From positions 1 to 52,537 of the forward strand of contig RFHH01000180.1 in NCBI GenBank assembly GCA_003696075.1: a stretch of 52,537 nt of DNA, written 5' to 3'. The position numbers and the translations under genes were made by a program. Of the stretch, positions 9,812 to 21,156 are shown piece by piece; the first letter of the stretch is position 1, and each line of letters opens with the position of its first letter. The notes under the pieces were generated by a model, which ran no database searches, was not told where the DNA came from, and saw only the letters and a program-made list of their open reading frames with translations. The stretch is from Acidobacteriota bacterium (lineage in GTDB: Bacteria > Acidobacteriota > Polarisedimenticolia > J045).

Positions 9812-10189
9812 ATGAGCGACAGCGCCTGGGGTCTGCTCTTCCTCGCCGTTCTCGCGGTGGCGATGCCGGCGGGGATGATCGTCGTGTCGTGGGTGGCCGG
9901 ACGGCCGCGCACGGGCAGTCTGACGGACGTCACCCCCTACGAGTGCGGCAAGAAGCCGTTCACCTCGGCGAGGCGCCGCTACTCGGTCGGCTTCTATCTC
10001 ATCGCGATGCTCTTCATCGTCTTCGACATCGAGGCGGCTTTCCTCTATCCGTGGGCGCTGCAGCTCGGCGACGCCGCCGCCGAAGTCGGTCGCGGCTTCG
10101 TCCTCGCGGAGATGCTGGTCTTCCTGACGATCGTGATCGCCGGGTTCGTCTACGTGTGGGCGCGTGGCGCCCTGGATTGGGAGAGCTGA
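9812..10189 (+). CDS. nuoA: NADH-quinone oxidoreductase subunit A
   Basis: Small membrane subunit of complex I, near the quinone site. It has 125 residues and three helices, with the hallmark loop TPYECGKKPF (Cys) and FDIEAAFLYPWA (acidic helix 2). The ATG is preceded by GGAGG eight bases upstream; an upstream in-frame ATG has no support. First gene of the operon. The next gene is nuoC, two bases downstream; the expected nuoB is not there. Confidence 0.95.
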   Translation: MSDSAWGLLFLAVLAVAMPAGMIVVSWVAGRPRTGSLTDVTPYECGKKPFTSARRRYSVGFYLIAMLFIVFDIEAAFLYPWALQLGDAAAEVGRGFVLAEMLVFLTIVIAGFVYVWARGALDWES

Positions 10190-10191
10190 GG

Positions 10192-10686
10192 GTGTCCGGA
10201 GCGTTCGACAGCTATCCCGGAAAGGGTGAGTTCTGGGACATCGGCCCGACCGCGGACAGACTCCGCCAGGAATTCCCGGATGCCGTGCTCGAGGTCCGCG
10301 ATTTCCGCGGGGAACGGACCGTGGTGGTCGCCCGGGAAAAGCTGTTCGAAGTGCTCGCCTTTCTTCGCGACGATCCGGAGACCGACTTCGACTTCCTCAC
10401 CGACGTGACGGCTGTCCACTGGCCGGCCCGCGAAGAGCCGTTCGACATCGTCTACCACCTCTATTCGATGTCCCGGAATCGGCGACTCCGGGTGAAGTGC
10501 CGGGTGCCCGATCCACCCACCGTCCCGAGCGTCGTCGCCCTGTGGCCCACGGCGAACTGGCTCGAGCGCGAGTGCTACGACATGTTCGGCGTCACCTTCG
10601 AGGGGCATCCCGATCTGCGGCGCATCCTGATGCCCGAGGATTACGAGGGCTGGCCGCTGCGCAAGGAGTTCCCGCTCAAATGCTGA
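10192..10686 (+). CDS. nuoC: NADH-quinone oxidoreductase subunit C
   Basis: Peripheral-arm (30-kDa-type) subunit of complex I, 164 residues. The family signature ERECYDMFGVTFEGHPDL followed by RILMPEDYEGWPLRKEFPL is intact at the C-terminus. The GTG start lies two bases after the nuoA stop with GAGG immediately upstream. It is a separate gene, not fused to nuoB or nuoD. NuoC packs against NuoD and NuoB, so a NuoB must come from elsewhere if this complex is functional. Confidence 0.95.
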   Translation: MSGAFDSYPGKGEFWDIGPTADRLRQEFPDAVLEVRDFRGERTVVVAREKLFEVLAFLRDDPETDFDFLTDVTAVHWPAREEPFDIVYHLYSMSRNRRLRVKCRVPDPPTVPSVVALWPTANWLERECYDMFGVTFEGHPDLRRILMPEDYEGWPLRKEFPLKC

Positions 10687-10720
10687 GGGCCGGCGCGGTT
10701 CAGGCTGCGGGAGGTGAACG

Positions 10721-11929
10721 GTGAGCGATTCGCTACTCCGCGACGGGTCGGCGGCCGGCGACCGCGAGGGCACCATCACCATCAACATGGGGCCCTCGCA
10801 CCCCTCGACGCACGGCGTGCTCCGCCTCGTGCTCGAACTCGAGGGCGAGGAAGTCCGAAGCTGCAAGGCCGATATCGGCTACCTGCACCGTGGCTTCGAG
10901 AAGATCGCCGAGAACAAGACGTGGCAGCAGTTCATCACCTGGACCGACCGTATGGACTACCTTGCGCCGGCGTCGAACAACGTCGCGTACGTCCTGGCGG
11001 TCGAGAAGCTGCTGGGCCTGGACGTGCCTCCCCGGTGCAAGGCCCTCCGGGTGGTTCTCTGCGAGATGTCGCGGATCTCGGCGCACCTCTTGTGGCTGGG
11101 AACCCACGCCCTCGATCTCGGGGCCGCCACGGTCTTTTTCTACACCTTCCAGCAGCGCGAGATCCTCTACGACCTGTACGAGAAGCTGACCGGCGCCAGG
11201 CTCACCACCTCGGCACAGCGGATCGGCGGCATGTCTCGCGACACGCCCGAGGGGTGGCTCGACGAGGTGCGCGAGTTCACGCGACAGGTCGTCCCGGTGA
11301 TCGATGAGTGCGAACGCCTGCTGACGCGCAATCGCATCTGGGTCGAGCGGACCCGCGACATCGGGGTTCTGAGCGCCGAAGATGCGATCGCCTTCGGCTG
11401 CACCGGTCCGGTGTTGCGCGGATCGGGCGTGGAGTGGGATCTCCGCAAGGCACAGCCCTACCTCGGCTACGAGCAGTACGACTTCGAGATTCCCGTCGGC
11501 ACGGTCGGTGACGTCTACGATCGCTATCTCGTCCGCATGGAAGAGATGCGGCAGTCGGTCAGGATCATCGAGCAGGCCCTGGACAACATGCCGGAGGGCC
11601 CGATCAACGCCGACGCCCCGAAGGTCGTGCTCCCTCCGAAGGAAAAGGTCCTGACATCGATGGAGGACCTCATTCACCACTTCATCATCCTGACAGAGGG
11701 AATCAAGCCCCCGGTCGGCGAGGTTTACCATGCGATCGAGGCGCCTAAGGGGGAACTCGGTTTCTACATCGTCAGCGACGGGGCGAACTCGGCTTACCGG
11801 TGCCGTATCCGGCCGGCCGCATTCGTGAACCTGCAGGTGATCGAGAAGATCGCGGTGGGACAAATGGTGCCGGACGTCGTCGGAATCATCGGCAGCCTCG
11901 ACCCGGTGATGGGAGAGGTCGACCGCTGA
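10721..11929 (+). CDS. nuoD: NADH-quinone oxidoreductase subunit D
   Basis: The 49-kDa-type subunit forming the quinone cavity with NuoB. The 402 residues open with the conserved INMGPSHPSTHGVLRL (quinone-site His residues), then DIGYLHRGFEKIAE, and end with the usual DPVMGEVDR. GTG start with GGGAGG upstream. The length and termini are complete. It keeps the NuoB-facing conserved segments, which argues for an intact partner outside the window rather than decay. Confidence 0.96.
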   Translation: MSDSLLRDGSAAGDREGTITINMGPSHPSTHGVLRLVLELEGEEVRSCKADIGYLHRGFEKIAENKTWQQFITWTDRMDYLAPASNNVAYVLAVEKLLGLDVPPRCKALRVVLCEMSRISAHLLWLGTHALDLGAATVFFYTFQQREILYDLYEKLTGARLTTSAQRIGGMSRDTPEGWLDEVREFTRQVVPVIDECERLLTRNRIWVERTRDIGVLSAEDAIAFGCTGPVLRGSGVEWDLRKAQPYLGYEQYDFEIPVGTVGDVYDRYLVRMEEMRQSVRIIEQALDNMPEGPINADAPKVVLPPKEKVLTSMEDLIHHFIILTEGIKPPVGEVYHAIEAPKGELGFYIVSDGANSAYRCRIRPAAFVNLQVIEKIAVGQMVPDVVGIIGSLDPVMGEVDR

Positions 11930-11951
11930 GGCGGACGGCAGGGAGCGGGAC

Positions 11952-12476
11952 GTGTACGGGCAGGAATTCGAGCGCCGGGCCGAAGAGATCGTCGCGCGCT
12001 ACCCACAGCCGCGCGGCGCGGTGATGCCGCTTCTCCATCTCGTCCAGGAGCAGAAGGGATTCATCCCCCCGGACGCCGAGGAGTGGATCGCCCGGCGTCT
12101 CGGGCTGACGCCCTCGTTCGTGCACGGTGTGACGACCTTCTACACCATGTACAGGACGGCGCCGTGCGGCGAGTACCTCATCCAGCTGTGCACGACGGTC
12201 TCGTGCATGTTGAGGGGCTGCGATCACGTCCTCGAGCACATCAAGAACAGGCTCGGGATCGAGGTGGGCGAGACGACACCCGACGGCAAGTTCACGCTCG
12301 TCACGGTCGAGTGTCTGGGCTCGTGCGGCACGGCGCCGATGATGCAGGTGAACGACGACTACTACGAGGACATGGACATCGAGCGCGTCGATGCCCTGTT
12401 GGACGCGCTCGCGGCCGGGCGGGAACCGCCGTTCCCGCCGGGTCCAGGACCGAAGCGCGTCCTCGTCGGGGACTAG
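11952..12476 (+). CDS. nuoE: NADH-quinone oxidoreductase subunit E
   Basis: Thioredoxin-like 24-kDa subunit of the NADH-oxidising module, holding the [2Fe-2S] cluster N1a. In 174 residues the four ligands are C80 and C85 (CTTVSC) and C121 and C125 (CLGSC). A helical N-terminus (LLHLVQEQKGFIP) is typical. GTG start with GGGAG upstream. Its presence with nuoF and nuoG shows a full NADH dehydrogenase (N) module, unlike F420- or ferredoxin-dependent minimal complexes. Confidence 0.95.
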   Translation: MYGQEFERRAEEIVARYPQPRGAVMPLLHLVQEQKGFIPPDAEEWIARRLGLTPSFVHGVTTFYTMYRTAPCGEYLIQLCTTVSCMLRGCDHVLEHIKNRLGIEVGETTPDGKFTLVTVECLGSCGTAPMMQVNDDYYEDMDIERVDALLDALAAGREPPFPPGPGPKRVLVGD

Positions 12477-12527
12477 CCGGGGACGCGCGGGCTTCCGGCG
12501 GCACCGCCGGGCCGAGGACGGGAGGAG

Positions 12528-13808
12528 ATGGAGAAGGTTCTGACGCGGAACGTCGGCATCGCCGACTCGCACCGGCTGGAAACCTACCGCGCCCGCGGCG
12601 GTTACCGGGCGCTGGAGAAGGCGTGCCGGATGGAGCCGGACGAGATCGTCGGCGCCGTGAAGACCTCCGGTCTGCGGGGCCGCGGGGGTGCCGGTTTCCC
12701 GACAGGCGTGAAGTGGTCGTTCATGCCGAAGGAGCCGCATCCCGATCGGCCCCACTACCTCGTGTGCAATGCGGACGAATCGGAGCCCGGCACGTTCAAG
12801 GACCGCCTCCTGATCGAAAACGACCCGCACCTTCTCCTGGAGGGCTGCCTCATCGCAGCCAGGGCCGTGCGGTCGAGCAAGGTCTTCATCTATATCCGCG
12901 GAGAGTACGTCCTCGGCGCCCGGCGTCTCGAGCAGGCGGCGGCGGAGGCGCGGGAAGCCGGGATCATCGGACAGGACATCTTCGGATCGGGATGGTCCTG
13001 CGACATCGTCGTCCATCGCGGCGCCGGTGCCTACATCTGCGGCGAGGAGACCGCGCTGCTCGACTCCCTGCAGGGCGGCCGCGGCAACCCCCGGCTCAAG
13101 CCGCCGTTCCCCGCCCAATACGGCATCTACGGCATGCCCACGACGGTCAACAACGTCGAGACTCTCTGCTGCGTGCCGCTGATCATCGAGCGGGGAGCCG
13201 ACTGGTTCAAGTCGATCGGCCCGGACGAGCGCAACACCGGCCCCAAGCTCTACTGCCTGTCGGGGCACGTCAAGCGCCCTGGCGTGTACGAGGCGCCGAT
13301 GGGGATCGAGCTTCTCGAGCTGATCGAGGAGTTCGGCGGCGGGATGCTCCGGGAGGGGCGGAAGCTCAAGGCGGTGATCCCCGGGGGATCGTCCGTGCCG
13401 GTGCTGCGGGCCGAGGAGTGCCAGGGGCTGAGAATGGATTTCGATTCCCTGGCCAAGGCGGGCACGATGCTCGGCTCGGCCGGCACCATGGTCATGGACG
13501 AGACCACCGACATGGTCGCGGTCATGGAGCGGATCGCCCACTTCTACGCCCACGAAAGCTGCGGGCAGTGCACGCCTTGCCGCGAGGGGACCGGCTGGCT
13601 GCTGAAGATCCTGCACCGGATCCGGAGCGGGAGAGGCCGTCCCGAGGATCTGGACCTGCTCGACTCGGTCGCCGGACACATGATGGGCACCACCATTTGC
13701 CCGCTCGCGGATGCAGCGGCGATGCCCTGCCGGTCCTTCGTGAGCAAGTTCCGCGAGGAGTTCGAACACTACATCCGGCACGGTCGAAGCATGACCGCTA
13801 CGGCATGA
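12528..13808 (+). CDS. nuoF: NADH-quinone oxidoreductase subunit F
   Basis: 51-kDa subunit that binds NADH, FMN and [4Fe-4S] cluster N3. In 426 residues it has GRGGAGFPTGVKW (FMN/NADH glycine-rich loop), GAGAYICGEETALLDSLQG, and the N3 ligands in SCGQCTPCREG plus the later Cys in TTICPLADA. The length is normal. ATG start. An 88-nt gap to nuoG holds only a 20-codon open frame with weak coding evidence. Confidence 0.96.
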   Translation: MEKVLTRNVGIADSHRLETYRARGGYRALEKACRMEPDEIVGAVKTSGLRGRGGAGFPTGVKWSFMPKEPHPDRPHYLVCNADESEPGTFKDRLLIENDPHLLLEGCLIAARAVRSSKVFIYIRGEYVLGARRLEQAAAEAREAGIIGQDIFGSGWSCDIVVHRGAGAYICGEETALLDSLQGGRGNPRLKPPFPAQYGIYGMPTTVNNVETLCCVPLIIERGADWFKSIGPDERNTGPKLYCLSGHVKRPGVYEAPMGIELLELIEEFGGGMLREGRKLKAVIPGGSSVPVLRAEECQGLRMDFDSLAKAGTMLGSAGTMVMDETTDMVAVMERIAHFYAHESCGQCTPCREGTGWLLKILHRIRSGRGRPEDLDLLDSVAGHMMGTTICPLADAAAMPCRSFVSKFREEFEHYIRHGRSMTATA

Positions 13809-13896
13809 GGGGCTTGCCATGACCGCTGCGACCGCGACGAGGTGGCCCACCGATCGCCGGCCGGAAGAGCCGCGCTGAGCCGCTGCGAGGCTGCCG

Positions 13897-15591
13897 ATGC
13901 CAAAGTTCACGATCGACGGCCGTGAGCTCGAGGTCCCGGAGGGGACGACGATCATGCAGGCGGCGCATGCTGCCGGCATCCCTATCCCGCACTACTGCTA
14001 CCACCCGGGATTGTCGATCGCCGGTAACTGCCGGATCTGCCTCGTCGAGGTGGAGAAGTTCCCGAAGCCGGCGATCGCCTGCAACACGGTCGTGACCGAC
14101 GGAATGGTCGTGCGGACACAGGCCTCGTCGGAGAAGGTCAAGGAGTGGCAGGAATCCGTGATGGAGTTCCTGCTCATCAACCATCCGCTCGACTGCCCCA
14201 TCTGCGACCAGGCCGGCGAGTGCAAACTGCAGGACTACTCGTTCAAGCTGGGCCGCCCCACCACCCGGTTCGTCGAGGAAAAGGAACACGGGCCGAAGCG
14301 CAGGATCCTCGGCCCCCATGTGGTCTTCGACTGGGAGCGCTGCATCAAGTGCACTCGCTGCATCCGGTTCTGCCGGGAAGTCACGGGGACCGGTGAGCTC
14401 GGCATGTTCCTCAGGGGAGTCAAGGAGGAGATCGGCGTTTTCCCGGGGCGTCCGCTGGAGAACCCCTACTCGGGCAACGTCGCCGATGTCTGCCCGGTCG
14501 GCGCTCTGACGATCAAGGACACCCGCTTCATGCCGCGGGTCTACTTCGTCAGCGACGTTCCCTCGGTCTGCCCCGGATGTGCCCGCGGCTGCTCCGTCCA
14601 CCTGGGGGTTTTCCGGAACCAGATCGTCCGGATCACCCCGCGGGAAAACCAGGCGATCAATCGCTGGTGGATCTGCGACGAGGGCCGGCTATGGGGCCGC
14701 AGGCTGGAGCGAGCCGCGGCGAACCGGCTGTCGGGGGTCCGCGGACCGGCCGCGGAAGCAGCCGATCCGTGGGCGGAGGCCGTCCGAGCCGGGGCCGAGA
14801 TCCTGCGCGGCTCCGCGGGGCGGGTCGCGGTCGTCGCATCGCCGCGGGCGGGTTTGGAGGAGACCTTCCTGCTGGCGCGGCTCGCGTCCGGACCCCTCGG
14901 CGGCGCTCCCGTGTATCTCCCGCGGCACGAGCGGGGGGAGGATGACGACCTGCTCATCCGAGCGGACAAGAGCCCGAACCGGCGTGGCGTCGAGCTCCTC
15001 CTCGAGGCGCTCTGCGGCGGAGCCAGGCCGATCGACGAGCTGAGAGGAGCTCTCGGCGACGGGCGCTTCGAGACCGTCCTCGCCCTCGGACCGGGGCTCG
15101 TGGGCCCCGTGGACGGCGAGCCGGAGGTGCTCCCGGAGGAGGCGCTCCGGCGCGCGCCGAACCGGATCGTGATCGACGCCCACCGCTCCGGTTTCAGCGA
15201 GGCAGCCACGCTTCTGCTCCCGTCGGCCGCTTTCGCCGAGTACGATGCGACCTACGTCAACTTCGCCGGCCGCGTGCAGGCGGCGCCCAAAGGGCTCACC
15301 CCGCACGCCGACTGCCGGCCACCGTACATGCTGCTGGCCGATCTGTACGAGCACCTCACCGGGGATCCGGCTCCCGCGCACGACAGCGTTCACACGTTGA
15401 TCTCGGAGACCGTGCCGGCGTTCGCGGGGATCGTCTGGGACGATCTCCCGGGCTCGACGGGGGCCGATCTGGCCGGCGCCGACGCGGCCGCACACGCCTG
15501 CCGCGTCACCGGCGCCGCCGCCGACATGCTGGCCCGCGGCTGGCGGGAGCTGCCCGCCAGCCCCAGGGGGAAGCCGCCGTGGGTGTGGTGA
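13897..15591 (+). CDS. nuoG: NADH-quinone oxidoreductase subunit G (short form)
   Basis: Iron-sulfur subunit of the NADH module. The 564 residues carry [2Fe-2S] ligands C34, C45, C48 and C62; the HxxxC type cluster H96, C100, C103 and C109; a [4Fe-4S] set C149, C152, C155 and C199; and an extra CX2CX3CX27C set (C225, C228, C232, C260) matching the spacing of cluster N7 found in only some NuoG proteins. The molybdopterin-like C-terminal domain is shortened compared with the 700-900 residues usual in proteobacteria. Its stop overlaps the nuoH start by 13 nt. Confidence 0.93.
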   Translation: MPKFTIDGRELEVPEGTTIMQAAHAAGIPIPHYCYHPGLSIAGNCRICLVEVEKFPKPAIACNTVVTDGMVVRTQASSEKVKEWQESVMEFLLINHPLDCPICDQAGECKLQDYSFKLGRPTTRFVEEKEHGPKRRILGPHVVFDWERCIKCTRCIRFCREVTGTGELGMFLRGVKEEIGVFPGRPLENPYSGNVADVCPVGALTIKDTRFMPRVYFVSDVPSVCPGCARGCSVHLGVFRNQIVRITPRENQAINRWWICDEGRLWGRRLERAAANRLSGVRGPAAEAADPWAEAVRAGAEILRGSAGRVAVVASPRAGLEETFLLARLASGPLGGAPVYLPRHERGEDDDLLIRADKSPNRRGVELLLEALCGGARPIDELRGALGDGRFETVLALGPGLVGPVDGEPEVLPEEALRRAPNRIVIDAHRSGFSEAATLLLPSAAFAEYDATYVNFAGRVQAAPKGLTPHADCRPPYMLLADLYEHLTGDPAPAHDSVHTLISETVPAFAGIVWDDLPGSTGADLAGADAAAHACRVTGAAADMLARGWRELPASPRGKPPWVW

Positions 15592-16607
15592 TCGCGAGCT
15601 TCGTGAAGGTCTTCGTCGTCGTCAACCTGCTGATGGTGGCGGTGATGGCGATGACCTGGGTCGAGCGGCGCGGCTCGGCGTTCATTCAGCGGCGCCTGGG
15701 GCCGAACCGCGTCGGGCCGTTCGGCCTCCTCCAGCCCGTGGCCGACGGGATCAAGTTCCTCTTCAAGGAAGACATCGTCTCGCCGATGACCCATCGGCCC
15801 ACCTACATCGCCGCCCCCGCGATCGCGCTCGCGGCGGCCCTGTGCGGTTTCGCGGTCATCCCGTTCGGGAGCGCTCTGCAGGTGGGCGGCCTCCGCGTTC
15901 CGCTCGTCATCGCCGACATCGAGGTGGGCGTGCTCTTCCTGCTCGCGGCCTCGAGCCTGGGCGTCTACGGGATCATCGTGGGCGGCTGGGCGTCGAACAA
16001 CAAGTACTCGCAGCTCGGCGGGCTGCGCTCCTCGTCCCAGATGATCTCCTACGAGCTGGCGCTGGGTCTGGCCGTGATCGCGGTCGTCATCGTGAGCCGG
16101 TCCCTGCGCCCCGTCGAGATCGTCCGCCTCCAGGCCGAGGGGTGGTGGAACCTCGTCTACATGCCCCTGGGCTTCCTGGTGCTCGTCGTGGCCGGCTTCG
16201 CGGAGACGAACCGCCTGCCGTTCGACCTGCCGGAGGCCGAATCCGAGCTCGTCGCCGGCTACCACACCGAGTACTCGTCGATGAAGTTCTCGATGTTCTT
16301 CATGGCGGAGTACATCGCGATGGTCACGATCTCGGGGCTGATCACGACCCTGTATCTGGGCGGCTATTCGGTCCCGGCGTTCGTCCGCGTTCCCCTCGGC
16401 CTGCAGGGGAACCTGCTCGCGGTCGCGGAGATGCTCGTTTTCCTCGTCAAGGTGGCCGTCCTTCTCTGGCTCTTCGTCTGGGTTCGGTGGACGTTGCCGC
16501 GGTTCCGGTTCGACCAGCTGCTGCGGCTGGGTTGGAAGATGCTCATCCCGCTCGGGTTCGTCAACGTGATCTGGGCGGCGTTTCTCGTTTACATGGAGTG
16601 GGTCTGA
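15579..16607 (+). CDS. nuoH: NADH-quinone oxidoreductase subunit H
   Basis: Membrane subunit linking the quinone cavity to the proton path. It has 342 residues and about eight helices, with signatures RRGSAFIQRRLGPNRVGPFG and AETNRLPFDLPEAESELVAG (acidic quinone-proximal loop). The GTG start is chosen because AGGGGG lies about eight bases upstream; a second GTG nine bases later is possible. It is followed with a 1-nt overlap by nuoJ, so nuoI, normally between them, is missing. Confidence 0.95.
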   Translation: MGVVIASFVKVFVVVNLLMVAVMAMTWVERRGSAFIQRRLGPNRVGPFGLLQPVADGIKFLFKEDIVSPMTHRPTYIAAPAIALAAALCGFAVIPFGSALQVGGLRVPLVIADIEVGVLFLLAASSLGVYGIIVGGWASNNKYSQLGGLRSSSQMISYELALGLAVIAVVIVSRSLRPVEIVRLQAEGWWNLVYMPLGFLVLVVAGFAETNRLPFDLPEAESELVAGYHTEYSSMKFSMFFMAEYIAMVTISGLITTLYLGGYSVPAFVRVPLGLQGNLLAVAEMLVFLVKVAVLLWLFVWVRWTLPRFRFDQLLRLGWKMLIPLGFVNVIWAAFLVYMEWV

Positions 16608-17155
16608 TGCTGGCGCTGGCGCACGCGTTGCCTCTCGCAGCGGCTTCGGCCGCGGGCGTTCCGTTCGTGTTGCTGGCCCTCGTGGCGGTGGCGACGGCGC
16701 TCGCCGTGGTGCTCCACCGGAATCCGGTCATCGAGGCGCTTTTCCTCGTGCTGCACCTGATGTCGATCGCGGGCCTGTTCGCGCTGCTCCACGCGCCGTT
16801 CCTCGCGATCCTGCAGGTTCTCCTCTATGCCGGGGCGGTGGTCGTCCTGATCGTCTTCGTCATCATGCTGCTGCGCCTCGAACCGGAGAGTCGGGGAGGC
16901 CCGGGGCTGCTCCCGCGCCTGGTGGCGTTCGCGCTGATTCTGATCTTCGTGGGGCTGATCGCACGGGCGGTGACCGGCTTCCCGCCGACCGATATCGGAC
17001 CGTCCGGTGCCGCAGCGGACGGATTCGGTTCGGCGCGCCAGGTGGGGGAGGCTCTGTTCAATCGTTACTTCTATCCGTTCGAGGTGATCTCGCTGGCGCT
17101 GGTCGCGGCAATGGCCGGCGCCGTGCTGCTCGCCAAGCGGCGGCTGGAGGGCTGA
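16607..17155 (+). CDS. nuoJ: NADH-quinone oxidoreductase subunit J
   Basis: Membrane subunit with five helices, 182 residues. The conserved segment HAPFLAILQVLLYAGAVVVLIVFVIML, containing the pi-bulge helix region, is intact. The ATG overlaps the nuoH stop (TGATG), giving no room for an intervening gene. Membership rests on position plus this motif; NuoJ is otherwise poorly conserved. Confidence 0.93.
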   Translation: MLALAHALPLAAASAAGVPFVLLALVAVATALAVVLHRNPVIEALFLVLHLMSIAGLFALLHAPFLAILQVLLYAGAVVVLIVFVIMLLRLEPESRGGPGLLPRLVAFALILIFVGLIARAVTGFPPTDIGPSGAAADGFGSARQVGEALFNRYFYPFEVISLALVAAMAGAVLLAKRRLEG

Positions 17156-17158
17156 GCG

Positions 17159-17482
17159 ATGATCGAACCGGCGGCCGGCTCCTTGTTGCTATCGGCTCTC
17201 CTCCTGGGAATCGGCGCCGTCGGGGTCCTGACGCGCCGCAACGCGATCGTGATCCTGATGAGCATCGAACTGATGCTGAACGCCGGGAACCTCGCCCTCG
17301 TGGCGATTTCTCGGATGCTGCCGGGCGACGGCGGGGCCGGAGTCGTCGACGGGCAGGTCTTCGCGATGTTCGTTCTGGCGATCGCCGCCGCTGAGGCCGC
17401 CGTCGGGTTGGCGATCGTGATCGCGCTGTTCCGGCTGCGGGGCTCGATCGATATCGACCTGGCGCGACTCCTCCGCTGGTAG
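17159..17482 (+). CDS. nuoK: NADH-quinone oxidoreductase subunit K
   Basis: Small three-helix membrane subunit, 107 residues, homologous to MrpC. The two membrane Glu residues needed for proton transfer are present in [14 protein letters not shown] (E37) and [17 protein letters not shown]. Four bases after nuoJ. Confidence 0.95.
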
Positions 17483-17512
17483 CGGGGCGGGCCGACGCCG
17501 CGGGGACGAGAG

Positions 17513-19648
17513 ATGCTGCTGCCTTACCTGCTGCTGATTCCGCTGGCGCCCCTTGCCGGTTTCGCCATCGTGGGCGTCCTCGGCGCGGCGGGACGGCTCC
17601 CCGACCGCTGGGCGCACCGGATAGCGGTGGCGGCCTCGGCGGCGTCCTTCGTGCTGTCCGCCGGAGTGGTGTGGGAGTTCTCGGGCGGTCTCGACCGTGT
17701 CGCATCCTTGGGCGCCGAGCAGCCGGAGCGGTATGCGGTCCAGCCGGCGGGGGAGGGGATGCCCGCGCGGTTCACGGTGACCTACGCGGAATGGCTCCCC
17801 TTCGGGGAGACGCTCCTCAGGGGCTGGGCACCCGGCGGCGCCCGCGCGGCCGACGTCTCGATCGGATGGACGTTCTCGCTCGATGCTCTCTCCGCGGTGA
17901 TGCTGCTCGTCGTGACGTTCGTGGGAACGTTGATCCACATCTACTCGATCGGCTACATGGCGGGGGAGAAGGGCTACTTCCGGTTCTTCGCCTACCTCAA
18001 CCTGTTCATGGCCATGATGCTCACGCTGGTGCTGGGTGGAAACCTCCTGGTCATGTTCATCGGTTGGGAGGGCGTCGGACTCTGCTCTTTCCTGCTCATC
18101 TCGTTCTACTACGACCGGATGTTCGACCCGGAAACCGCCATGACATGCGCCGACGCGGGGCGGAAGGCATTCATCACCAATCGCGTCGGCGATTTCGCCT
18201 TCGTGCTCGGCGGGCTGCTGCTGCTGGTGACCTTCGGCACCCTCGATTTCGGCGCGATCAGCAGCGCCATCGACTCGAACTCCGACTACTGGTACGCGTC
18301 GGCGTTGCTGACGGGAATCGGGGTTCTTCTGTTCATCGGAGCGACCGGGAAGAGCGCGCAGATCCCGCTCTACGTGTGGTTGCCCGACGCGATGGCCGGA
18401 CCGACCCCTGTCTCCGCCCTCATCCATGCGGCGACGATGGTGACCGCGGGCGTGTACATGCTGGCGCGGATGTCTTCGCTCTACTGGCACGCGCCGGGGG
18501 CGATGTTCGTGGTCGCGGTCGTGGGCTGCCTCACCGCGCTTTTCGCGGCCACCATCGGGACCGCACAGTACGACATCAAGAAGGTGCTCGCCTACAGCAC
18601 CGTTTCCCAGCTCGGGTACATGTTCCTCGGCGCGGGCGTGGGCGCGTTCACGGCGGCGATCTTCCACCTGGTCACGCACGCCTTCTTCAAGGCCTGCCTC
18701 TTCCTCGCGGCGGGATCGGTCATCGTGAAGTGCGGACACACGAACGACATGCGCCTGTACGGCGGCCTCAGGCGGTTCATGCCCGTCACCTATGCCGCCT
18801 TCCTGGTGTCGACGCTCGCGATCACCGGCTTCCCGCTCCTCTCCGGCTTCATGTCCAAGGACGAGATCCTGGCGAGGACGCTGACATCAACCCGAGGGTC
18901 GCTGGCCCTTTGGCTGGTGGGTACGGCGGCTGCCGTTCTGACGTCCTTCTACATGTTCCGCGCCCTGCTGATGACGTTCCACGGCGAGAACCGCTCGCCG
19001 GATTGGGTGCGGCGCCAGCTCGGGGAGTCGCCGCGGGTGATGACGGCGGTTCTCGTGGTGCTGGCGGTCGGGGCCGCGCTCGTCGGCTTCCTCGGCATCC
19101 CCGAGGGCGTGTCGAGGCTCGTCGGGGTGCACGACGTCAACTGGTTCGACCACGTTCTGCACCCGGTGGTCGCGGCGCGGGGAATCGTCGCGGAGGCGGG
19201 GGAGGCGGCGCACGAGGGGGCGGGACCGGCGGAGGTGCTCCGTGAGGGCGCGGCATGGCACCCGAGCGTCGCCGGGGAGTGGGGCCTGTTCGGGCTCGGC
19301 ATCGGCGTGTTCGCGCTCGGCCTCGCGCTGGCGGCCTGGGCCTACGGCGACGGGATGAGGCGCGCCGAGGAGCTTGCCGGGCGGTTGCAGTATCTCCGCC
19401 GGCTTCTCCACCGGAAGTGGTTCGTGGACGAGCTCTATGACCGCCTGGTCATCCAGCCGTTCAACGCGCTGTCCCGCGCGATGAGCGCGATGGACCGGAA
19501 CGTCGTGGACGGTGCGGTGAATCTGTCCGGCGCGGTGGCCGAGTTCTCGGGTCAGGTGATCAAGCTCTTCCAGACAGGCGTGGTGAGGCACTACGCCCTC
19601 TGGTTCCTCGCTGGAGCGGTGATGCTGCTCTGGGTGGTGATCGGCTGA
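17513..19648 (+). CDS. nuoL: NADH-quinone oxidoreductase subunit L
   Basis: Distal antiporter-like proton-pumping subunit, 711 residues. Core signatures include FIGWEGVGLCSFLLISF (helix 5 Glu), GKSAQIPLYVWLPDAMAGPTPVSALIHAATMV (helix 7 Lys and surrounding) and HAFFKACLFLAAGSVI (helix 8). The long lateral helix region is at the C-terminus (RKWFVDELYDRLVIQPFNAL), which distinguishes it from NuoM. Its stop overlaps the nuoN start by 1 nt; nuoM, normally between them, is absent. Confidence 0.96.
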   Translation: MLLPYLLLIPLAPLAGFAIVGVLGAAGRLPDRWAHRIAVAASAASFVLSAGVVWEFSGGLDRVASLGAEQPERYAVQPAGEGMPARFTVTYAEWLPFGETLLRGWAPGGARAADVSIGWTFSLDALSAVMLLVVTFVGTLIHIYSIGYMAGEKGYFRFFAYLNLFMAMMLTLVLGGNLLVMFIGWEGVGLCSFLLISFYYDRMFDPETAMTCADAGRKAFITNRVGDFAFVLGGLLLLVTFGTLDFGAISSAIDSNSDYWYASALLTGIGVLLFIGATGKSAQIPLYVWLPDAMAGPTPVSALIHAATMVTAGVYMLARMSSLYWHAPGAMFVVAVVGCLTALFAATIGTAQYDIKKVLAYSTVSQLGYMFLGAGVGAFTAAIFHLVTHAFFKACLFLAAGSVIVKCGHTNDMRLYGGLRRFMPVTYAAFLVSTLAITGFPLLSGFMSKDEILARTLTSTRGSLALWLVGTAAAVLTSFYMFRALLMTFHGENRSPDWVRRQLGESPRVMTAVLVVLAVGAALVGFLGIPEGVSRLVGVHDVNWFDHVLHPVVAARGIVAEAGEAAHEGAGPAEVLREGAAWHPSVAGEWGLFGLGIGVFALGLALAAWAYGDGMRRAEELAGRLQYLRRLLHRKWFVDELYDRLVIQPFNALSRAMSAMDRNVVDGAVNLSGAVAEFSGQVIKLFQTGVVRHYALWFLAGAVMLLWVVIG

Positions 19649-21156
19649 TGGAAAACCAGCTTTTCGAAGCGTGGACAGCGATGCCGACCCTCTGGACGGC
19701 GGCCTACGGCCTGCTGCTCCTCCTGTTCGCCCCTGCACTCCGGCAGGACCGTCAGTGGCTGTGGGGCTTCTCCGTCGCCGGGATGTCGCTCGCCCTGCTC
19801 ATCCCGTCTTTCATGCTCTGGCACATCGGCGACTACGGGGACGTGCGGGAGACCGCCGGCCTGCCGGGGATGGCGATGGTCCGTGCCGACAGGCTCTCCC
19901 TCTCGCTCGACATCCTTTTCGCTTTGGCGGGTCTCTTGGCGTTGCTCGTCCTTCCGAACTACCTGGAGAAGGTCAAGTCGCACCGTCCGGAGATCTACCC
20001 GCTCATGTTCTTCGCCGTCTCCGGCATGACGGTGATGGTGGGCACCGACAACCTGCTCATGGTGTTTCTCGGCCTCGAGATCCTCTCGATCTCGCTGTAC
20101 GTGATGACCGGGGTGGCCCGGCACACCGCGCTCGGGACCGAGGCCGCGCTGAAGTACTTCCTGCTGGGCGCCTTCGCCACGGGATTCTTGGTGTACGGTA
20201 CCGCGCTGCTCTACGGGGCCACCGGGTCTCTGGACATGAGCGAGATGGCGTCAGCGATCGCCGACGGGCGGCTGAACTTCGGCTCGTTCGGAAACGGAAT
20301 GTTGTTGGCGGGCGCCGCGCTGGTTCTCGTGGCGTTTGCCTTCAAGATCGGGGCCGTGCCGTTTCACTTCTGGACGCCGGACGTCTACCAGGGCGCCCCG
20401 ACCCCGATCACCGCCTTCATGGCGGCGGGAACGAAGGCGGCCGCTTTCGGGGTGCTGCTGAGGCTGCTGCACGAGGGATTGCAGGGATCGGCGGACCTGG
20501 CGGACCGCTGGACGGCGGCTCTTTCGGTTCTGGCGGTGGCCACGATGATCGTCGGCAACCTCATGGCGCTCGTCCAGGACCGCGTGAAGCGGCTCCTGGC
20601 CTACTCCAGCGTGGCGCACGCCGGGTACCTCCTGCTGGGAGTGATGGCGCCGATCGATGTCGGTGTGGCCAACACGGTCTTCTACCTCGCCGCCTACACC
20701 TTCATGACGGTCGGTGCTTTCGCGGTCGTGTCGCTCTTCCAGACGGAGGGCGAAGATGCCGATCACCTGATGAACTTCTCCGGACTGGGCCGGAGCCATC
20801 CCGTCCTCGCCCTCGTGATGACCGTCTTCATGCTGTCGCTGATCGGGATCCCGCCGATGGGCGGGTTCACCGGGAAATACGTCATCTTTCTCGCCGCACT
20901 GAGATCGGGCCACCCTTGGCTCGCGGGGATCATGGCCCTCACGGCAGTGATTGGCGCGGCGTACTACCTCAAGGTGATCGTCGCGATGTACTTCCGGGAT
21001 CCGGCCGCCGGGTCGACCGTCGACGTCCGCGTGCCTCTGCCCGCCGGCGTCGCGCTCTCGGTCGCCGCAGCGGGGACGGTCCTGCTGGGCGTCTACCCGG
21101 CCCTCGTGCTGGAGCCGCTGACGAGGATCCCGGACAGCCTGGTGTTCTTGCCATGA
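19648..21156 (+). CDS. nuoN: NADH-quinone oxidoreductase subunit N
   Basis: Third antiporter-like subunit, 502 residues. It is NuoN rather than NuoM because of the GTEAALKYFLLGAFATGFLV motif, the FKIGAVPFHFWTPDVYQGAPTPITAFMA motif and the absence of a NuoM-type N-terminus. The helix 5 Glu (FLGLEILSISLYVM) and helix 7 Lys (AFKIGAVPFH) are present. Last gene of the complex I operon; a hairpin follows 17 nt after its stop. Confidence 0.94.
   Translation: MENQLFEAWTAMPTLWTAAYGLLLLLFAPALRQDRQWLWGFSVAGMSLALLIPSFMLWHIGDYGDVRETAGLPGMAMVRADRLSLSLDILFALAGLLALLVLPNYLEKVKSHRPEIYPLMFFAVSGMTVMVGTDNLLMVFLGLEILSISLYVMTGVARHTALGTEAALKYFLLGAFATGFLVYGTALLYGATGSLDMSEMASAIADGRLNFGSFGNGMLLAGAALVLVAFAFKIGAVPFHFWTPDVYQGAPTPITAFMAAGTKAAAFGVLLRLLHEGLQGSADLADRWTAALSVLAVATMIVGNLMALVQDRVKRLLAYSSVAHAGYLLLGVMAPIDVGVANTVFYLAAYTFMTVGAFAVVSLFQTEGEDADHLMNFSGLGRSHPVLALVMTVFMLSLIGIPPMGGFTGKYVIFLAALRSGHPWLAGIMALTAVIGAAYYLKVIVAMYFRDPAAGSTVDVRVPLPAGVALSVAAAGTVLLGVYPALVLEPLTRIPDSLVFLP

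Follow-up and report, generated by a model that had tools for sequence, protein, structure and literature searches.

A complex I operon without nuoB, nuoI, and nuoM

The subject of this analysis is an operon for respiratory complex I, the enzyme of subunits NuoA to NuoN, in a 52,537-nucleotide (nt) contig of an Acidobacteriota bacterium of the class Polarisedimenticolia (assembly GCA_003696075.1, contig RFHH01000180.1). This contig, hereafter "the window," carries the number C180 in a genome of 3.29 Mb (G000; 231 contigs, 98.6% complete). The open reading frames (ORFs), the sequence, and the Nuo protein models agree on the order nuoA-C-D-E-F-G-H-J-K-L-N, as a preliminary description of the DNA had stated, and nuoB, nuoI, and nuoM are absent, with clean junctions at the places that they usually occupy. 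All genes lie on the forward strand. The ORF of nuoA (9812 to 10189) is separated by only 2 nt (10190 to 10191), at the usual place of nuoB, from nuoC (10192 to 10686, GTG start; TIGR01961), which is followed by nuoD (10721 to 11929; TIGR01962, 570.7 bits), nuoE (11952 to 12476; TIGR01958), nuoF (12528 to 13808; TIGR01959), a short form of nuoG with 564 amino acids (13897 to 15591; TIGR01973, 413 bits against a cutoff of 470), and nuoH (15579 to 16607; NF004741). At the usual place of nuoI, nuoH and nuoJ (ORF, 16607 to 17155) overlap by 1 nt in a TGATG sequence (16605 to 16609). Then follow nuoK (17159 to 17482; NF004320) and nuoL (17513 to 19648; TIGR01974), which again overlaps by 1 nt, in a second TGATG (19646 to 19650) at the usual place of nuoM, with nuoN (19648 to 21156; TIGR01770). 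These spacings, too, are as first described. NCBIfam Nuo models were matched by 10 of the 10 window subunits scanned, with C, E, F, H, K, L, and N reaching the cutoff and A, G, and J staying below it; NuoD also exceeds its NCBIfam cutoff, in a separate search.

The expectation that the three missing genes are encoded elsewhere was confirmed, as the same genome holds one copy of each. In whole-genome searches, nuoB was found on contig C157, beside a gene for a methyltransferase of the MidA/NDUFAF7 family, as the one match to TIGR01957 (this model was used for NuoB since a PF01058 census was too noisy on account of hydrogenase subunits); nuoI on contig C198, beside a gene for an AAA/CoaE-like kinase; and nuoM on contig C61, directly upstream of atpI-atpB, the latter two each as one match at the threshold used. 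NuoM matches were taken at an expectation value (E) of 1e-60 and NuoB-model matches at E 1e-30; for the NuoB, NuoD, NuoI, NuoM, and PF01058 searches, the counts per genome are complete, and positions are given among the matches listed. All 14 core subunits are encoded (A, G, and J below the model cutoffs), a complete complex I spread over four loci: the 11-gene operon, nuoB, nuoI, and nuoM. Cysteines 59, 60, 125, and 154 of the displaced NuoB align with cysteines of Thermus NuoB, which we take to be the ligands of cluster N2, and the displaced NuoI contains two CxxCxxCxxxC motifs. Judging from these sequences, the 14 subunits are predicted to form an NADH-oxidizing, proton-pumping complex I.

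The preliminary description had further suggested that the three subunits might be shared with a second respiratory complex. Whole-genome searches with PF00346, which covers NuoD and the large subunits of group 4 hydrogenases, and with PF00361 found neither a second complex I nor a group 4 hydrogenase in the window's genome: The single PF00346 match is the nuoD of the window, the three PF00361 proteins are NuoL, NuoM, and NuoN, and nuoL is present in a single copy. Because there is only one NuoD-like gene and only three PF00361 proteins, this genome has one complex I. Sharing hence does not apply to the present genome; for nuoM alone, and in the past, relatives with two complexes speak for it (see below). 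For nuoB and nuoI it does not hold, as those two-complex genomes that were examined possess the displaced B and I in addition to the B and I of their second operon.

The same junctions were observed when the operon was compared in related genomes. Counting members of the same family and class, the window included, and only junctions visible within one contig, we found no room for nuoB between nuoA and nuoC in 28 of 28 cases (27 relatives and the window; largest hit-to-hit gap 155 nt), none for nuoI between nuoH and nuoJ in 24 of 24 (23 relatives; 200 nt), and none for nuoM between nuoL and nuoN in 20 of 20 (19 relatives; 311 nt). The closest named relatives, the Acidobacteria assemblies L016, L017, L018, L019, and evidently L072, are the same records as genomes G003, G010, G009, G007, and G001 and were each counted once; one divergent class member (G012) and two contigs (L137 of G015 and L150 of G029) stand outside the counts and are treated below. 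Within the family, the corresponding operons of eight other members all lack nuoB between A and C, and the four that reach nuoN lack nuoI and nuoM as well. In the single-contig genome G001, the operon ends after nuoF, and nuoL and nuoN lie ~0.33 Mb away, spaced like an L-N pair (L126, 4000 to 7988). Another single-contig genome of the class (G020; 6.0 Mb, 99% complete) has no NuoB, NuoD, NuoI, or NuoM model match at the thresholds used.

A second complex I in relatives and the origin of the lone nuoM

Members of the class, e.g., G009, G016, G027, and G031, carry a second complex I operon, nuoA-B-C-D-H-I-J-K-L-M-N, which is devoid of E, F, and G and leads into the atp genes (loci L172, L178, L187, and L190 hold A to D and H to N without E, F, and G). 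It coexists with the NADH-type complex encoded by the operon of the window's kind, hereafter the first complex, and carries the only nuoM, the one gene of this operon that the window's genome still has. In the window's genome, nuoM stands alone between genes for a HEAT protein, a secreted protein, a DUF192 protein, and one labeled up2 on one side and atpI-atpB on the other, while in G009 the same four genes are followed by the whole second operon and then by atpI-atpB. The arrangement of these upstream genes, nuoM alone, and atpI-atpB is found in G000, G004, G006, G010, and G011. HEAT, DUF192, and up2 lie upstream of nuoA in G009, G008, and G002, the last of which also displays L-M-N-atpI-atpB, and upstream of a lone nuoM in G000, G001, G004, G006, G010, and G011 (in G007, the contig ends at nuoM). 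The lone nuoM of G023, G025, G014, and G033 is preceded by the DUF192 and secreted-protein genes, with HEAT in three of these four and up2 in none. The atp genes directly follow the lone nuoM in G000, G004, G006, G007, G010, G011, G023, and G025. A search for remnants of other second-complex genes around the nuoM of the window's genome yielded no significant match, as the NuoL and NuoN queries matched only nuoM itself, as a homolog.

Phylogeny placed the lone genes accordingly. Operon types were assigned by gene content before any tree was built. In a NuoM tree of 40 rows, from which two matches (the second of L192, and L214) were left out, all 11 lone NuoM fell inside the second-complex clade (support 100/99), apart from the NuoM that are kept between L and N, and the NuoM of L137 and L150 did likewise. 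The approximately unbiased (AU) test, with NuoM groups chosen after seeing the tree, rejected a grouping of the NuoM of the window's genome with first-complex NuoM (p 0.0017) and also a single clade made up of all lone NuoM (p 5e-8). Since the lone NuoM do not form one clade, the second complex would have been lost, with nuoM spared, at least twice, and three times on the best tree. In a NuoD tree, the second type stays together (support 85).

Two minor observations concern these loci. In G014 and G033, two to three antiporter-type genes lie on the opposite strand beside the lone nuoM (L177, 4735 to 7181; L192, 1420 to 5491). Two genomes of family f11, G023 (L183) and G025 (L185), contain a third type of complex I operon with divergent subunits, whose NuoM is ~38% identical.

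One NuoM gene in genomes with two complexes

All 22 genomes of the family and class with a first-complex NuoD and a completeness of 90% or more had a NuoM match at E 1e-60. Both complexes occur in 13 of these 22, and 12 of the 13, from eight families, have exactly one NuoM match (G009, G013, G015, G016, G018, G021, G022, G026, G027, G028, G029, and G030). In all 12, this sole NuoM lies in a run through nuoN toward the atp genes, which in G015 and G029 is joined to the front of the first complex, and a first-complex L-N junction without nuoM is visible in each. Because it is found in eight families, the state of two complexes and one NuoM looks long-lived. A second NuoM exists in G023 and G025, where it belongs to the third operon type, and G033 has a second match to NuoM. 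Seven family genomes without a second complex (G000, G001, G004, G006, G007, G010, and G011) have exactly three PF00361 proteins each.

The lone NuoM appears to be functional. That of the window's genome is full length, scores 594 bits with TIGR01972, resembles solved NuoM/ND4 structures (8qby_M and others), and keeps E152, K240, K271, and E413, presumably the conserved Glu/Lys/Lys/Glu of the pump. The ratio of nonsynonymous to synonymous substitution rates (dN/dS) of lone NuoM indicates purifying selection over all pairs compared (0.06 to 0.28): It is 0.06 between G004 and G010, where NuoD, NuoF, NuoB, and NuoI have 0.04 to 0.07, and 0.25 to 0.28 in three wider pairs, which are strongly diverged at silent sites and in two of which NuoL and NuoN have 0.20 to 0.55. 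We infer from this that the atp-linked NuoM is the working NuoM of the complex I in the window's genome.

NuoL is alike in both complexes, while NuoN is not

NuoL and NuoM are neighbors at the tip of the membrane arm, and NuoL behaved differently from the other subunits that we compared. Between the two complexes of one genome, the protein identity of NuoL has a median of 67% (nine pairs, 57 to 91%, some with partial genes), compared to medians of 40, 46, 54, 49, 41, 54, and 43% for A, C, D, H, J, K, and N (6 to 10 pairs each; pairs with fewer than 80 aligned residues were excluded). At the nucleotide level, where both nuoL genes were available in 4 of 10 genome pairs, the copies within a genome are 83% identical over 2030 bases in G009, 86% over 2101 in G026, and 84% over 1007 in G016; G022 is lower, with 73% over 894. 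The NuoL tree mixes both complex types, with the NuoL of the window grouping with NuoL of both complexes of its own family, and the AU test (rows of at least 550 amino acids, without G015 and G029) rejected the first-complex NuoL of the class as one clade (p 1e-8). By contrast, the NuoN tree separates the two types at 100/100 and places the NuoN of the window in the first-complex lineage. Both trees were made without rows shorter than 300 amino acids or under a bit-score limit and without third-type and orphan loci.

Contig ends in the assemblies fit this likeness of the nuoL copies. Of the 14 genomes tested, each with at least two loci, six (G015, G018, G021, G028, G029, and G030) have contigs of the two operon types that share exactly the same 99 to 229 bases where they end in or next to nuoL, as would be expected of nearly identical copies. 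No such nuoL overlap was found in G036 and G039, where one was expected, and the contig-end overlap of G013 falls within its second operon. This property would explain the joined contigs L137 and L150, which have the A-C and H-J junctions without B and I and in which M, N, and atp genes come after L: The contig ends in G015 and G029 share exact overlaps of 127, and of 197 and 229, bases at nuoL. We read these two contigs as assembler joins through the nuoL repeat, with a real merger of the operons as the alternative.

Proposed history and its alternatives

From gene content, gene positions, phylogeny, flanking synteny, and purifying selection, all of which are seen directly, we infer a history in which, probably, two complexes shared one NuoM, the second complex was later lost at least two times with nuoM spared, and a single complex I made from four loci was left. 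nuoI and nuoB would have left the operon and stayed with the first complex. The nuoM of the first operon would then have disappeared at a time when the cell also held the second, EFG-less complex I upstream of the atp genes, whose NuoM could from then on have served both complexes. NuoL, the membrane-arm neighbor of NuoM, would have been kept alike in both by repeated gene conversion, for which the shared NuoM may be the reason. The second complex would have been deleted in several lineages, including that of the window, with nuoM spared, such that a second-complex NuoM would now sit between NuoN and NuoL in the NADH-type complex that remains and pump as usual. A shared NuoM together with a homogenized NuoL amounts to a common distal module. 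With somewhat less assurance, though on balance in its favor, we propose that two unlike complexes I, one NADH-driven and one EFG-less, use one such module, i.e., a single NuoM and a gene-converted NuoL, and that the second complex is dispensable while nuoM is not. A common distal module would make the whole second complex losable but not its nuoM, and a chimeric complex I would be left, its NuoM encoded next to the ATP synthase genes.

Several observations weigh against this history. G012 still has B in the A-C interval and I in the H-J interval, and the assemblies of G015 and G029 have L-M-N and the atp genes behind the first-complex nuoK on one contig. The thirteenth two-complex genome, G024, has two NuoM matches, and these resemble pieces of one broken gene, which lowers confidence. 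Three less complete genomes (G003, G017, and G040; 84, 85, and 63% complete) lack a true NuoM match despite a first-complex NuoD. The lone nuoM of G001 matches residues 12 to 297 of 553 only (L166, 4846 to 5703), and no further NuoM piece was found in that genome; given a completeness of 74% and the interruption of the operon after nuoF, either the nuoM gene or the assembly is broken, and this, too, lowers confidence. Other genes lie between nuoM and the atp genes in G014, and no atp gene follows the lone nuoM within the stretch examined in G033 and G001. Inside the window's family, the loss may have happened once or more often (support 68). Lastly, lone NuoM is less tightly constrained than NuoD between G006 and G011 (dN/dS of 0.23 versus 0.14).

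Some of these points suit a different explanation, namely that the remaining complex I runs without NuoM, on two antiporter-like subunits, and that the atp-linked protein serves otherwise, for example as an antiporter tied to the ATP synthase. The position of nuoM with the atp genes, away from the nuo genes, would fit, as would the truncated nuoM of G001 alongside its first-complex genes. We nevertheless hold this to be quite unlikely, as the protein is, along most of its sequence, a normal NuoM by its TIGR01972 score and its match to 8qby_M and others, as lone NuoM pairs have dN/dS of 0.06 to 0.28, and as a NuoM is there in every one of the 22 near-complete genomes with a first-complex NuoD. 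The scatter of B, I, and M could also be ordinary operon decay, in which the first-complex nuoM was replaced after a brief redundancy and no lasting sharing took place. Split complex I clusters are common, according to the literature in the parts consulted, and an E. coli paper reportedly states in its title that the assembly of complex I does not depend on gene order. A brief redundancy sits poorly with a one-NuoM, two-complex state in 12 genomes of eight families, and decay does not account for NuoL being homogenized between the complexes alone among the compared subunits; we regard this explanation as unlikely. An assembly error, with collapsed junctions and B, I, and M really in place, has in its favor that nuoL lies at contig ends in several two-complex relatives, as if collapsed by assemblers. 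We rejected it with near certainty, given that 27, 23, and 19 relatives have the same A-C, H-J, and L-N junctions, that B, I, and M each have a conserved neighborhood of their own, and that the window's genome has one nuoL only.

Relation to known systems

Complex I is regarded as modular, with NuoL and NuoM as the outer pump unit. The system of the window resembles the canonical 14-subunit enzyme in keeping all 14 core subunits, the cluster ligands of B and I, and the pump residues of M; it differs in that B, I, and M are encoded away from the operon, each at a locus of its own, and in that NuoM comes from another complex I lineage than NuoD and NuoN. In cyanobacterial NDH-1 variants, one core takes several NdhD/NdhF pairs; the distal pump subunits are likewise an exchangeable module there, whereas here two cores would take one NuoM. 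The 2M complex I, reportedly introduced by Chadwick et al. in 2018, similarly departs from one nuoM gene per complex, in the opposite sense to two complexes with one nuoM gene between them, and the window's genome, with one NuoM, is not a case of it. The consulted parts of two papers describe the 2M enzyme as having two NuoM (PMC6606698, PMC11636273). Genomes with two complexes were already known from these papers and from work on Chloroflexus aurantiacus, which has two complex I clusters and whose authors, in the part consulted, call a sharing of NuoG between them possible (PMC3150298). That case concerns a peripheral-arm subunit in one genome, while here a membrane pump subunit is concerned and the evidence is phylogenetic and from repeated loss. 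In a literature search, with subscription journals largely outside it, neither a shared or relic NuoM nor gene conversion of nuoL turned up.

Natural genomes seem to treat the NuoL-NuoM pair as a component that two enzymes have in common. The repeated loss of all but nuoM constitutes a natural deletion experiment, which suggests that NuoM is needed, and it offers a handle on the question which of the contacts that NuoM makes with NuoN and NuoL are indispensable. In practical terms, surveys that rely on operons may count such genomes among those with an incomplete complex I.

Probable departure of nuoI and nuoB and the MidA neighborhood

Genomes outside the class display intermediate states: G119 has A-B-C, H-J, and L-M-N, i.e., I alone is gone, while G061 and G085 have A-C, H-J, and L-M-N, with B and I gone and M kept. 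The simplest order of departure would be I first, then B, then M. The new neighborhoods are conserved. In six of six family genomes, the window's included, nuoB is followed by the MidA gene (PF02636) and preceded by a sigma-70-family gene (~3.5 kb away in G009), and nuoI is preceded by the kinase gene in six of six family genomes examined. In families f6, f8, and f10, nuoI, nuoB, and midA lie in one cluster at all eight loci examined. The MidA loci are L011 (491 to 3391), L099, L101, L102, L106, L108, L111, L117, and L122. NDUFS2 is the counterpart of NuoD, and the LHRG sequence of the NDUFS2 methylation site is present in the NuoD of the window. The consulted part of one study reports that human NDUFAF7, termed a MidA ortholog, methylates Arg-85 of NDUFS2 (PMC3829151). 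The adjacency of nuoB and the MidA gene may therefore provide a lead on complex I maturation in bacteria, as a gene link to an assembly-factor family.

An origin of the displaced nuoB from the second complex was considered, and a quick NuoB tree does not support it: The family's six displaced NuoB group together there (support 99), and no second-complex NuoB is among them. In the same tree, which has several weak branches and includes some very long rows that are spurious, the displaced NuoB overall do not form one clade. In G018, two nuoB flank nuoI (L122, 371 to 2984), and the first of them groups with second-complex NuoB. A second PF01058 match in the window's genome, on contig C122 (83 bits), is not among the NuoB-model matches at the threshold given above; there, at about 11243 to 13636 (L002, L012), a NuoB-like protein is encoded beside multi-ferredoxin reading frames, perhaps part of a hydrogenase or a related oxidoreductase.

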